Below are positions 19,531 through 63,247 of a DNA stretch of 64,000 nt, in pieces. The DNA lies in contig NC_014836.1 in assembly GCF_000177635.2 (NCBI RefSeq), positions 2,244,001 to 2,308,000 of the forward strand, written 5' to 3'. The DNA is from Desulfurispirillum indicum S5 (GTDB lineage Bacteria; Chrysiogenota; Chrysiogenetes; Chrysiogenales; Chrysiogenaceae). The position numbers were made by a program, and so were the translations under genes. The notes under the pieces were generated by a model, which made no database searches, had not been told where the DNA came from, and was given only the letters and a program-made list of their open reading frames with translations. Position 1 is the stretch's first letter; every line of letters starts with the position of its first letter.

Positions 19531-20230
19531 CTGAAGTTTCGCACCTTGTCGCCCTGGGCTAATATATTATTTTCCTAATATTTACTGCGCGGAAACCGTA
19601 TTGATTTTGTATGTTTGACTTATCTGATATTCCTCTTTTCGTTTCCGGGTATTGTCCTTTTTGACCGCCCAAAAAGGACTCAAAAACGCGCCCCCCGAAC
19701 GCCCGTTTTTCCGGTTCGCCTGCTCGCCTGTTCTGGAGATCCGGCAGCAGGCTGCTTAAAGAGCCCCATCTGCTGTGTTGCCGGGCATCGCTCGTCACTG
19801 CGACGTACAGAGAGTACGCCTCGCTCCTCGCTTCGCCCGCGCCTTGCACCTGGGTCTCTTTGCATTGCCTGACCCCTGCTTCCCTGCAGTGCTGCCGGAC
19901 CACTCACTTCCTGTGAGTGTCCCGTTCGGGTCTTGCCTGCATAACGCGATGGACCCGCAGGGTTGTCGCCACGAGGGCGGCAACCGCAAACCAAAAGCCA
20001 CTGAGGGCGGTTGTTTGCGGTTCCCAGTTCCAGTCAGGCGGACGGCTGAAAAAAGACAGCATTGGGGCCGCTTCCCAGCCACTTTGTGCGAGTCCAAAGT
20101 GGCAAAAGAAACTCATAAACAAGGCGAGGATAATATCGCGACGCAATTTGTGCAGAACCATTTCCGCCATTCCAGCATGGCATCAGGATCAGCGCAGACA
20201 ATCTGCCGTTTCTGGGGTGCAAAAGTGAAG
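19531..20230 (-). mobile_element. LR large repeat, copy 1 (reverse orientation)
   Basis: 700 bp. Read on the minus strand it starts CTTCACTTTTGCACC and ends GGTGCGAAACTTCAG, near-inverted ends. In order it contains the AAACGGCAGATTG block, a CCACTTTGG/CAAAGTGG hairpin, the GGTTTGCGGTTGCCGCCCTC block, the CACTCAC-AGGAA-GTGAGTG hairpin, an embedded SR-like element and the GTCCTTTTTG-CAAAAAGGAC hairpin. No protein is coded; reading frames across it are not maintained between copies. Confidence 0.85.
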
Positions 20231-31776: not shown

Positions 31777-32563
31777 CTCAACTTTCGCGCCCCCGAAACG
31801 GCAGATTGCCGGCACCGACCCGGATACCATGCTGGAATGGCGGAAATAGTTCTGCACAGACTGAGTCTTTGACATTCCGATTCCATTACTCAGGAATTTT
31901 CCTTGCCACTTTTGACTCGCCAAAAGTGGCGCAAAAGCGACCCCCAGTGCTGTCCTTCTCAGCCGTCCGCTTGCCTGGAACTGGGGACCGCAAACAACCG
32001 CCCTCCGTGGCTTTTGGTTTGCGGTTGCCGCCCTCGTGGCGGCAACCCTGCGGGTCTACCGCGTTCCAGTCAGCACGTCCTGGCTGGGCCAGCACACGGG
32101 GGAGAGGCAGAAGCAGACAGTTCCCCCCTGAGCCCGTCCGGTGAGTGCGACGCCTGGCTGGCAAGACCCGAACGGGACACTCACAGGAAGTGAGTGGTCC
32201 GGCAGCACTGCAAGGATGCAGGGGTCAGGCGACGCAAAGAGGCCCAGGTGCAAGGCGCCGGCAAAGCGAGGAGGGAGGCGTGCTCCCCGTACGTCGCAGT
32301 GACGAGTGATGCCCGGCAACGCCGCAGATGGGCCTCTTTGAGCAGCCTGCTGCCGGATCTCCAGAACAGGCGAGCAGGCGAACCGGAAAAACGGGCGTTC
32401 GGGGGGCGCGTTTTTGAGTCCTTTTTGCGCGGTCAAAAAGGATAATATCCGGAAGCGAAAAAAGATACCAGATGAGCCAAGCATGCAAAGTCAATACGGT
32501 TCTTGCATGATAAACATCAGAATAATGACGCTTAAACCAAGACGACAAGATGCGAAACTTCAG
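31777..32563 (+). mobile_element. LR large repeat, copy 2 (most complete)
   Basis: 787 bp from CTCAACTTTCGCGCC to GATGCGAAACTTCAG, which are imperfect inverted ends. Internal hairpins are GCCACTTTTG-N6-CAAAAGTGGC (31911-31936), CACTCAC-AGGAA-GTGAGTG, the SR-like core with CAAAGAGGCCCA (32235-32246) pairing TGGGCCTCTTTG (32329-32340), and TCCTTTTTG-N6-CAAAAAGGA (about 32418-32441). No transposase or conserved reading frame is present. Orientation is set by this copy. Confidence 0.9.
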
Positions 32564-39444: not shown

Positions 39445-39908
39445 GTGAGAAGTGAGGCGTACTTCCTGTACGTCGCAGCAACGAGCACTTGTGAGCAACG
39501 CCGCAGATGAGGGCTTTTCAGCAGCCTGACAGTCGGCGTGTCCTGGTTGGGAAAGAACACGGGGGAAAGACAGAAGCAGGCTGTTCCCCCCTGAGCCCGT
39601 CCGGTGAGTGCGACGCCTGGCTGGCAAGACCCGAAGGGACACTCACAGGAAGTGAGTGGTCCGGCAGCACTGCAGGGATGCAGGGGTCAGGCAACGCAAA
39701 GAGGCCCAGGTGCAAGGCGCGGGCAAAGCGAGGAGCGAGGCGTACTCCCTGTACGTCGCAGTGACGAGCGATGCCCGGCAACGCAGCAGATGGGCCTCTT
39801 TGAGCAGCCTGCTGCCGGATCTCCAGAACAGGCGAGCAGGCGAGCCGCAAAAACGGGCGTTCGGGGGGCGGTTTTTTTGGTCCTTTTTTGGCCGCACCAA
39901 AAAAGGAC
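39445..39908 (+). mobile_element. LR large repeat, copy 3 (5'-truncated SR-LR chimera)
   Basis: The left 86 bases are an SR element (GTGAGGCGTAC ... GGGCTTTTCAGCAGCCTG) fused at ACAGTCGGCG to the middle of an LR element. The LR part keeps the CACTCAC/GTGAGTG hairpin, an internal SR-like core with perfect CAAAGAGGCCCA/TGGGCCTCTTTG stem and the terminal hairpin GTCCTTTTTTGG/CCAAAAAAGGAC. It ends there, lacking the usual right end. The same fusion junction occurs in copy 5. Confidence 0.85.
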
Positions 39909-39990
39909 AGGAGAAATTGAAGCAATTTACTCACATCAAATAACCGTTATTTAACGCTTTACATCCAAAGCAAAGGATGAAAAACGTACG

Positions 39991-56505: not shown

Positions 56506-56627
56506 GCAGGCAATTGAAAAATGCCCAGGTGCAAGGCGCAAGCAAAGGAGTGAGGCGTACTTCCTGTACGTCGCAACGACGAGCACTGGTGAGCAACGCC
56601 GCAGATGAGGGTTTTTCAGCAGCCTGC
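56506..56627 (+). repeat. SR small repeat, complete copy
   Basis: 122 bp running from GCAGGCAATTGAAAAA to GGGTTTTTCAGCAGCCTGC. The GTACTTCCTGTAC hairpin core and GCAACGCCGCAGATGAGG are present. Nine of eleven positions of the terminal stem pair. The right end abuts the cobS ribosome-binding site (AAAAGGAG). Confidence 0.9.
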
Positions 56628-57358: not shown

Positions 57359-57536
57359 TACGGGCGCAAGGTACTCGCTGAACGCTGGAAGCACGTGGCT
57401 TATGTTCGCGCCTGAAACAGCATTGTCGGCGTCGACACTGATGCCATATTGGAATGGCCGAAATGGTTCTGCACAGACTGCATGCTTGGCATTACGCCCC
57501 ATTGGCCAGGAGTTTTCCTTGCCACTTTTGAATCGC

Positions 57537-57544
57537 CAAAAGTG
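57537..57544 (+). repeat. Target-site duplication, left copy
   Basis: CAAAAGTG directly precedes the IS. The identical 8 bases follow it at 58852-58859, consistent with ISL3-family transposition. Confidence 0.85.
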
Positions 57545-58851
57545 GGTTCATCCGGTTAAAGCGTACTTTGAATTATGGAGGGCCTTTATTCTGAGCTCGA
57601 AGAATTCCATATCTCTGTATCCATAGGCTTGCCTTTTGAGGGTATCAATTTTGTTGTTGATCCCCTCAAGTGGTCCTGTTGATATGGGGTGATCATACCA
57701 GTTCAGGATTCCCTCTCGGTGCTTCTCCAGCGTTTTGGCCATTTTCTTCAATCCTTTGATAGCTGATGCTTGAGCCCTGTTGATCCAGTCATCGAGGAAT
57801 ACCGTGGCAGTTACCTTGTCAGTTTGTTGCCATATCTGGCGGAGATCTTCTTTCATGTAATAGGCAACCGCCAATGGTCGATTGGCCTGCAGGGCAAGTT
57901 CAAGGCGTTCATGATCACTGGTTTGCTCGCCAATGCTCTGCGGATTTTTGAGAAGCATCCAGCGAGTGCCTTTGAGAATGCTCTTGTCATGCTGACTTGT
58001 GAGCTCATGGTACAGCTCGCGGCGAATATCGGTAAGGCGTTCATTCATAAGCTTGACGACATGGAAACGATCAAACACCAACGCAGCAGATGGAAGGTGT
58101 TCGAGCACTGCCGACCGGTAAGCCGGACTCATGTCAGCAGCAACGGCTTTGATAGATGACTTGCGACGACCAAGGCGTTTCCAGAAACCATCAAGCGCTT
58201 CTGCCTGTTTGCCTGCTCCAACGTATACGACCCTGGCTGAACCAAGGTCAATGACGAGAGTAATGAAGCCATGTTTGCGTCCTGTGTATTTCTCATCAAT
58301 GGCGATATACTCAAGCCCAGCAAGTGAAGGGCTACTGTAGTGATGATGCAGATACTGCTTGAAAATGGACTTGACCAGGTCCCAGCCTATACCAAGAAGC
58401 CGTGCTACATCAATGAGGGTCATAGCTTGGGCAAGGGAGACCACATACCGAGCAAATGCATGGGTGTAGGAACACCGTGGAGAGGCTATTTTCAGACTCA
58501 CCCGCCTGACACTACCGCACTGAAGGCACTGGATGCGTGGAACGTGGACGTGCAACCAAGTGGACTTGATCCCCAAAGGCAAACCTCGTAACCGACGAAT
58601 GCTACTGCCGCGTAATATGACAGAACGGCCAAGGCACGCAGGGCAGCGAATCAGCTTTTTACGGGGCCGGACATGGAAATTGATGGTATTGCCGCAATAC
58701 TCTGTGCGGATGTAATCGTAGCCAGCAAGGCCGTAGGCATGGTAAAGAACACTGGTGAGCATGGTGCTTCTCCCGGAATTATTTGGTTGTAATCCCGATA
58801 AGTGGCACCATGCTCACTTTTTTGTCAATGTATCCTCAATACGGAAGAGCC
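57545..58851 (-). mobile_element. ISL3-family insertion sequence, complete
   Basis: 1307 bp bounded by imperfect terminal inverted repeats (GGTTCATCCGG left; GGCTCTTCCGT read inward from the right) and an 8-bp duplication CAAAAGTG. It carries one transposase gene on the minus strand with an uninterrupted frame. Length, GGYTC ends and 8-bp duplication fit ISL3. Intact ends and frame suggest recent arrival. Confidence 0.9.
57548..58762 (-). CDS. ISL3-family transposase
   Basis: 404 residues. The N-terminal zinc-binding cysteines (CPAC ... QCLQC) and helix-turn-helix (LIDVARLLGIGWDLVKSIFKQYL) precede the DDE catalytic domain: first Asp in YIAIDEKYTG, second in AVAADMSPAY, Glu in STGPLEGINNKIDTLKRQAYGY. 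All three catalytic residues are present. The stop codon lies in the left terminal inverted repeat. Confidence 0.93.
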   Translation of the reverse strand: MLTSVLYHAYGLAGYDYIRTEYCGNTINFHVRPRKKLIRCPACLGRSVILRGSSIRRLRGLPLGIKSTWLHVHVPRIQCLQCGSVRRVSLKIASPRCSYTHAFARYVVSLAQAMTLIDVARLLGIGWDLVKSIFKQYLHHHYSSPSLAGLEYIAIDEKYTGRKHGFITLVIDLGSARVVYVGAGKQAEALDGFWKRLGRRKSSIKAVAADMSPAYRSAVLEHLPSAALVFDRFHVVKLMNERLTDIRRELYHELTSQHDKSILKGTRWMLLKNPQSIGEQTSDHERLELALQANRPLAVAYYMKEDLRQIWQQTDKVTATVFLDDWINRAQASAIKGLKKMAKTLEKHREGILNWYDHPISTGPLEGINNKIDTLKRQAYGYRDMEFFELRIKALHNSKYALTG

Positions 58852-58859
58852 CAAAAGTG
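58852..58859 (+). repeat. Target-site duplication, right copy
   Basis: CAAAAGTG, identical to 57537-57544. Removing the IS and one copy restores the LR hairpin arm found in copy 2. Confidence 0.85.
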
Positions 58860-59440
58860 GCTGGGAAGCGACCCCCAGTGCTGTCCTTTTCAGCCGTTCG
58901 CTTGCCTGGAACTGGGGACCGCAAACAACCGCCCTCCATGGCTTTTGGTTTGCGGTTGCCGCCCTCGTGGCGGCAACCCTGCGGGTCCATAGCGTTCCAG
59001 TCTTCGCGTCCTGGCTGGGACAGCACACGGGGGAGAGGCAGAAGCAGGCCGTTCCCCCCTGAGCCCGTCCGGTGAGTGCGACGCCTGGCTGGCAAGACCC
59101 GAAGGGACACTCACAGGAAGTGAGTGGTCCGGCAGCACTGCAGGGAGGCAGTGTCTGCCGGATCTCCAGAACAGGCGAGCTAACGATCCGGAAAAACGGG
59201 CGTTCGGGGGGCGCGTTTTTCGTTCTTTTTGCGCGGTCAAAAAGGACAGTATCCGGAGACAAAAAATGGAATACCAGATAAGTCAAGCATTCAAAATCAA
59301 TACGGCTTCCCGAGATAAACGGCAGTATAATAACAGCTTAACCCAAGGCAACAAGGTGCGAAAGTTGAGTAATTATTTAACATTTTACGCCGCGCGCAGG
59401 ACGACACAGAATCAACAGCCGGCAAGCGCTCAGCGCTTCC

Positions 59441-60662: not shown

Positions 60663-61252
60663 GCAAGGTGAGAAGTGAGGCGTATTTCCTGTACGTCGCA
60701 ATGACGAGCACTTGTGAGCAACGCCGCAGATGAGGGCTTTTCAGCAGCCTGACAGTCGGCGCGTCCTGACTGGGCCAGCACACGGGGGAAAGACAGAAGC
60801 AGGCCGTTCCCCCCTGAGCCCGTCCGGTAAGTGCGACGCCTGGCTGGCAAGACCCGAACGGGACACTCACAGGAAGTGAGTGGTCCGGCAGCACTGCAGG
60901 GAGGCAGGGGTCAGGCAACGCAAAGAGGCCCAGGTGCAAGGCGCGGGCAAAGCGAGGAGGGAGGCGTACTCCCTGTACGTCGCAGTGACGAGCGATGACC
61001 GGCAACGCAGCAGATGGGCCTCTTTGAGCAGCCTGCTGCCGGATCTCCAGAACAGGCGAGCAATGAGCCGGAAGTACGGGCGTTCGGGGGGCGCGTTTTT
61101 GTGTCCTTTTTGCGCGGTCAAAAAGGACAATACCCGGAAAACGAAAAGTGGAATACCAGATAAGTCAAGCATTCAAAATCAATACGGTTTCCGCGAGATA
61201 AACGCCAGTAGAATAACAGCTTAACTCAAGACAACAAGGTGCGAAAGTTGAG
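60663..61252 (+). mobile_element. LR large repeat, copy 5 (5'-truncated SR-LR chimera)
   Basis: The left part is an SR element ending CTTTTCAGCAGCCTG, fused at ACAGTCGGCG to the LR middle exactly as in copy 3. The rest is complete: CACTCAC/GTGAGTG hairpin, internal SR-like core with perfect CAAAGAGGCCCA/TGGGCCTCTTTG stem, GTCCTTTTTG/CAAAAAGGAC hairpin, and right end GGTGCGAAAGTTGAG. The right end directly abuts the leuB stop codon. Confidence 0.88.
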
Positions 61253-62735
<1,483 letters not shown>

Positions 62736-62836: not shown

Positions 62837-62837
62837 C

Positions 62838-62998
62838 TACTCTCTACTCTCTACTCTCTACTCTCTACTCTCTACTCTCTACTCTCTACTCTCTACTCTC
62901 TACTCTCTACTCTCTACTCTCTACTCTCTACTCTCTACTCTCTACTCTCTACTCTCTACTCTCTACTCTCTACTCTCTACTCTCTACTCTCTACTCTC
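62838..62998 (+). repeat. Perfect tandem heptanucleotide repeat, 23 copies of TACTCTC
   Basis: 161 bases made of exactly 23 uninterrupted TACTCTC units. It lies between an SR element and the lipoprotein gene starting 250 bases downstream. The unit is not a multiple of three. A frame without stops runs through it, but only because the heptamer lacks stop codons in this direction. Confidence 0.97.
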
Positions 62999-63247
62999 CC
63001 CGCATTATGCCCGTGCCAACCGCAAACTTCAACCAAAGATCGTATACGATTACCAACACCACCGCCAAGAGCTTTCACTGGCTGAAACTCCCTTGAAACG
63101 CGGTTTCACGTCGCCAGAGGGCCCATTACATTTCCTTAACCCGCAAATTGTGACTTTCATGTTGAATTCCCTACTCTCAAAGCGTACATTCGAAGCCATG
63201 GCAATAACGTCATTATATTTTCACACAAAACAAATGGAGGAGAGTCA

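Follow-up and report, generated by a model that had tools for sequence, protein, structure and literature searches.

REP elements are palindromic, multicopy sequences mobilised by RAYT/Y1 transposases. The small RNAs of the CsrB/RsmZ type bind CsrA by means of GGA held in hairpin loops, such GGA-bearing loops being the targets of CsrA. Correia, ERIC and RUP are the elements with which the LR element of this work is compared. The consulted part of PMC3733652 gives the size of REP elements as 20–40 bp, and the sections of PMC2996986 at hand describe, for Geobacter genomes, families of multicopy palindromic intergenic sequences with many copies between genes.

We have studied two nested repeats, LR and SR, in Desulfurispirillum indicum S5. 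The window, which is the whole stretch of DNA that was analysed, comprises 64,000 nucleotides (NC_014836.1, positions 2,244,001 to 2,308,000), and the genome forms one contig of 2,928,377 bases. As far as the consulted part of PMC10969869 goes, the LR element resembles Correia, ERIC and RUP in being short, in having no recognised protein, in its inverted ends and direct target duplication, and in its dozens of dispersed copies. It differs from them in that its core is an inverted dimer of strongly covarying structured modules, a second repeat sits at fixed inner sites, and no autonomous partner was found near the extra ends. SR shares with REP elements the palindromic character and the many copies, but it is longer and the genome lacks Y1_Tnp. 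When compared by description with the Geobacter multicopy palindromes (PMC2996986, in the sections consulted), SR is similar in being palindromic and has matches in Geobacter argillaceus. The LR module, in turn, is like the CsrB/RsmZ-type RNAs in presenting GGA in hairpin loops on variable, compensating stems, in a genome that has one CsrA; it is unlike them in having no Rfam match in the region and in being dispersed as a transposable repeat.

Within the partial coverage of our literature searches on nested MITEs, CsrA in connection with repeats and Geobacter multicopy sequences, the LR element is not described, and a search with two short repeat fragments, also of partial coverage, returned unrelated results only. 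In the part consulted of the D. indicum genome paper (PMC3368425), transposon terms are absent from the text and the word "repeat" occurs once, in the references. Nested miniature elements are to be expected; here there are 64 scorable loci, in both states, within one genome, which makes the age of the insertion, the outgroup state and the exchange between copies measurable.

The LR Element

LR forms the core of a MITE-like, non-autonomous transposable element, which measures ~660 bp when empty and ~790 bp when filled with SR; this longer unit lay beyond the view of an earlier note on this window. On the left, the similarity among most full copies extends ~285 nt past the left arm, and on the right it stops where the right arm stops. 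The element ends are imperfect inverted repeats, CTSAASTTTCGCA...TGCGAAASTTSAG. The terminal 13-mer CTSAASTTTCGCA has 67 exact occurrences in the genome, in both orientations, and controls gave 0. An exact 6-bp target duplication is present at 19 of 35 pairs of terminal inverted repeat (TIR) ends, among which pair 2266817–2269835 (3 kb), probably spurious, was kept; a duplication of 7 bp occurs at three of the 35 and one of 5 or 8 bp at none, with 0/2000 in the random pairing control. Perfect 6-bp duplications flank full-length copies of both forms, filled and empty. The cores of copies 4 and 5 are crossed by two open reading frames of ≥120 aa, neither of which has a Pfam match (E 0.1), and no transposase ORF stood out in the ORF lists around the extra TIRs. 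The element is probably served by a transposase acting in trans.

In the window, copy 4 occupies 57405–59369 on the + strand. Its left end is degenerate, with a left TIR that is not recognised, and its right terminal inverted repeat TGCGAAAGTTGAG lies at 59357–59369 (+). The left arm of this copy (LRL, 58985–59152, +) and its right arm (LRR, 59154–59375, +) were used as queries. Further to the left, also outside the view of the earlier note, an ISL3-family IS interrupts the left hairpin of the copy (57545–58851, − strand; Pfam DDE_Tnp_ISL3, 3.7e-74). The transposase ORF of this IS spans 57548–58762 (−), and the IS is bordered by the 8-bp repeat CAAAAGTG at 57537–57544 and 58852–58859. Another LR copy, near genome position 2515600, is interrupted by what is likely a second copy of this IS.

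In the left heads of full-length copies, to the left of the TTGCCACTTTT hairpin, there is a recurrent TTGACATT...TATGAG/TATACGAG motif that by eye resembles a sigma-70 promoter facing the core. This candidate promoter was not listed by the scan of L020.

Filled and Empty Junctions

Copy 4 reads GGCAG (59147–59151), TGT (59152–59154) and CTGCCGG (59155–59161), and this is the empty form of SR site 1. The earlier note had placed the feature at 59140–59175, a span that encloses the empty junction, and was right that only TGT separates the two half-arms here (59147–59161). It was also right that copies 2, 3 and 5 hold SR; copy 1 is filled too, between the same two half-arms. The SR of the filled window copies is 128 nt long and lies between GCAG and CTGCC. 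Copy 1 is found at 19531–19940 on the − strand (SR at 19748–19875) and copy 2 at 32061–32563 (+; SR at 32222–32349). Copy 3 (39447–39910, +) is filled at both sites, with its site-1 SR at 39684–39811. Copy 5, on the + strand throughout, has an SR at site 2 (60663–60751) abutting the left arm (60753–60907), a second SR at site 1 (60908–61035) and a right arm at 61036–61253, with the right TIR ending at 61252.

A pattern for the empty junction (30 positions, 27 of them specified, up to three mismatches allowed) matched 35 places in the genome versus 0 for the reversed control. A census was also made by Blast of the left arm, the right arm and SR on candidate stretches of the genome. It gave 37 LRL-LRR chains, two of which are deletions (1094569 and 2358160), leaving 35 intact empty junctions, the same number as in the whole-genome pattern search. 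Besides these, there are 29 LRL-SR-LRR loci, one among them the tandem LRL-SR-LRL-SR-LRR, together with six SR-LRR loci without left arm, seven of SR alone, three of LRL alone and one LRL-SR fragment; the DNA searches scored 40 of 99 and 40 of 141 first-look candidates, and diverged copies may be missing from these counts. Empty copies are the majority and copy 4 is an ordinary one of them; the 35 intact empty junctions exclude, within this genome, that it is a unique deletion.

The left junction of site 1 is GCAG-GGGT-CAGGC in 28 of 30 cases, the exceptions being one GCAG-CGGT and one GCAG-TGGT, and the right junction is GCCTG-CTG in 35 of 35. Filled copies do not retain the TGT seen in the empty form. 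No direct repeat was found around SR in LR, the left flank being mostly GGGT and the right one CTGC, and none at site 2 either. Within LR, SR was seen at these two points only; for site 2, the junction CCTG-A-CAG was counted 12 times, one of these being the internal joint of the tandem locus. Near-identical junctions without target duplication are the outcome of the genome-wide comparison of filled and empty copies that the earlier note had proposed. Its suggestion that SR is a separable cassette, inserting in or lost from LR, holds as far as separability goes: the family occurs outside LR and in other phyla, two LR sites are used, and 35 intact empty junctions stand against 29 filled ones. 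The self-moving part of the suggestion is not supported. Since these are near-identical, show no duplication and have lost TGT in the filled form, one ancestral insertion spread by recombination fits better than many, and repeated precise insertion or excision of SR is not supported by the site-1 junctions.

The two forms might also differ by recurrent loss of SR, the empty copies being deletion products of filled ones. Such loss does occur, at loci 2358160 and 2515413, where GGGGTCAGGC is kept while the rest of SR and ~30 nt of the right arm are gone, which is what deletion at a short CAGGC repeat would produce. These deletions are scarred, however, whereas the 35 intact empty junctions carry TGT, CGT or CTT and no SR remnant. 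Moreover, the module copies in the outgroup genome G001 are empty (5/5), and so are all six of the diverged copies that make up the oldest LR subfamily, a clade with good support; from this it follows that empty is the older state. Loss as the general origin of the empty form is strongly disfavoured, and we regard it as quite improbable.

The account that we prefer, with a probability of about 0.72 for the whole of it, is that the site-1 SR entered once and then spread by LR transposition and by exchange between copies. At site 1, on the 3' side of a GGA hairpin of the right module, one SR would have come in and taken the place of TGT; another would have entered site 2, close to the left module. 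Both kinds of element, filled and empty, would then have multiplied by transposition, while recombination or gene conversion among dispersed copies would have reassorted SR state and SR sequence relative to the flanks. A single origin of the site-1 SR is probable, and gene conversion is the probable agent of the reassortment. If the two SRs of a doubly filled element recombined, loci such as the six SR-LRR ones and the tandem would be expected to result.

SR State and Its Flanks

A flank tree was built for 64 loci (29 filled, 35 empty) with the junction and SR removed. SR state changes 23 times on this tree versus a mean of 21.4 for shuffled labels, a count that is soft because linkage within the arms is weak past ~100 nt and the tree is therefore poorly resolved (stars on 9 of 61 inner branches, which force four changes or more). 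In favour of two clonal subfamilies, one filled and one empty, amplified separately without exchange, both forms have full-length copies with perfect 6-bp duplications. The filled rows, however, form no clade, one-change trees make up 0% of the bootstrap, and supported pairs mix states, such as empty 1642947 with filled 2863985 (100/89). Within the resolution of the tree this reading is rejected, and we find it hardly credible.

None of 136 polymorphic sites with sufficient data, including those 4–5 nt away, is associated with SR state at p<0.05, and the lowest p for such an association in the wider site list is 0.057. Within the arms, associated site pairs amount to 16% at 26–50 nt and to 11–16% over 26–100 nt. 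A break of linkage exactly at the SR site was considered and is not claimed, the 75 cross pairs at ≤100 nt (0 at p<0.05) being few and non-independent. The distance between SRs shows no positive correlation with that between flanks (Spearman −0.13 on the left and 0.03 on the right, 406 pairs). Copy 5 and locus 2177650 differ at 0/128 positions in SR, at 18/153 on the left and at 8/89 on the right; for copy 3 and locus 440368 the corresponding values are 0/128, 14/152 and 24/93, so that identical SRs lie in flanks differing by up to 26%. In the 41 nt that directly precede SR, locus 2177650 has the younger-family base at 8 of 8 distinguishing sites; further out, older and younger bases are mixed, and the pattern looks like a converted tract. 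Diversity in the site-1 SR is 3.8%, versus 5.5% and 7.2% in the neighbouring 60 nt of filled copies.

Some of these observations would also suit the main rival explanation, that SR is an actively mobile, site-specific cassette which, in the manner of hairpin-targeting elements, enters one and the same hairpin of LR again and again. A mobile SR could account for a state that is unlinked to the flanks even at 4–5 nt, for an SR less diverse than the sequence adjoining it, for identical SRs in divergent flanks, and for the occupation of two LR sites plus loci outside LR. It is harder to reconcile with junctions that are near-identical though the filled form lost the target TGT, with the absence of target duplication, with only two insertion points in LR and with a genome in which the Y1_Tnp (PF01797) transposase is missing, and we consider it unlikely. 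Single entry followed by exchange, the account that we favour, makes its own demand, as zero linkage at 4–5 nt would require that conversion tracts were very short or that conversion took place many times. With SR state unlinked a few nucleotides away, we think that ectopic gene conversion can be read from these dispersed repeats, in a phylum that has received little study.

SR as a Separate Family

SR is an independent hairpin family, unrelated to LR. Its outer stems, read by eye, vary jointly between copies. One SR of the window lies outside any LR (56507–56626, +). Among 99 genomes searched, SR matches were found in four (D. indicum, G002, G080 and G092) and not in G001. At least eight matches are present in G002, where 8 of 41 candidates were scored, next to LR traces that are only weak. 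The occurrence of LR modules without detected SR in G001, a sister genus, and of SR with weak LR traces in G002, another, indicates that the two families are separable. A degenerate SR pattern matched at least 120 stretches of the genome collection, mostly on deltaproteobacterial contigs, and the matches listed include Geobacter argillaceus and Rokuibacteriota. The plasmid collection gave no match to SR, and Y1_Tnp (PF01797) had 0 matches in the D. indicum genome, with the control set positive in 5 of 14. SR seems worth describing as a family.

Two further observations concern SR and similar repeats. SR is very widespread in Deltaproteobacteria, often with several copies per genome. In the window, a tandem array of the 7-nt unit CTACTCT (62837–63000) stands immediately behind an SR-like repeat.

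The Structured Module

The consensus computed with RNAalifold from 31 cores (22 empty and 9 filled with SR removed, leaving out five copies with unlocated SR ends and those with truncated left arms) contains compensatory changes between paralogues. The covariance model R1, which covers the 145 nt at the right of the core, finds the module in 3 of 193 genomes: D. indicum, G001 with five copies and, weakly, G002. On 43 chosen loci, R1 gave 26 matches on the opposite strand in the left half of the core, which means that the core is an inverted pair of modules. In copy 4, the right module lies at 59060–59203 (+; R1 match of 173.7 bits) and the left one, inverted with respect to it, at 58880–59025 (−; 49.7 bits on the minus strand). 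Two-sided compensatory change occurs in 34 of 48 module pairs, 93.9% of cells pair (67 distinct rows), and the covariation score is 0.523 versus 0.182 for shuffles and ≤0.101 for slid structures, in an alignment of 67 rows that was fitted to the model and is thereby biased toward the structure.

Two hairpins of the right module of copy 4 have GGA in the loop, CACTCAC-AGGAA-GTGAGTG (59108–59126, +) and CACTGC-AGGGAG-GCAGTG (59136–59153, +), the 3' side of the latter being the position of SR in filled copies. An outward hairpin on the 3' side, ...CTTTTTGCGCGGTCAAAAAGG... (59222–59247, +), has outer pairs that covary among copies. GGA is present in both loops in 35 of 35 right modules and in 5 of 5 modules of G001; left modules have it in the main loop in 25 of 26 and in the other loop in 0 of 26, and the G002 modules in one of two for each loop. 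The folds of copies 4 and 5 have the same scaffold with or without SR (z of −6.2 and −7.3). In the filled fold SR is an extra side branch, and the stem of the inner GGA hairpin goes from 6 pairs when empty to 4 when filled.

Rfam, searched with the region at E values as high as 5, returned nothing relevant, and the LR core had no match in the collections of plasmids and phages. Strongly covarying and with its GGA loops conserved, the module is in our view a candidate for a new structured RNA or DNA family carried on a transposable element. The genome has one CsrA (89.7 bits), and the GGA hairpins suggest a putative CsrA-binding decoy, by analogy with the known small RNAs. Taken further, LR might be a transposable decoy with a dimeric CsrA-binding RNA module as cargo, whose copies would titrate or locally recruit CsrA and in which SR would tune one GGA hairpin; this wider proposal is rather doubtful.

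Two departures from the common LR organisation were also seen. At genome positions 39279 and 2177650, where the cores are diverged, a short hairpin CAGCTACT...AGTAGCTG replaces the left module at the point of the site-2 SR. The LR copy at genome positions 2809660–2810047 is missing its left end and has a flanking repeat of ~39 nt rather than 6 bp.
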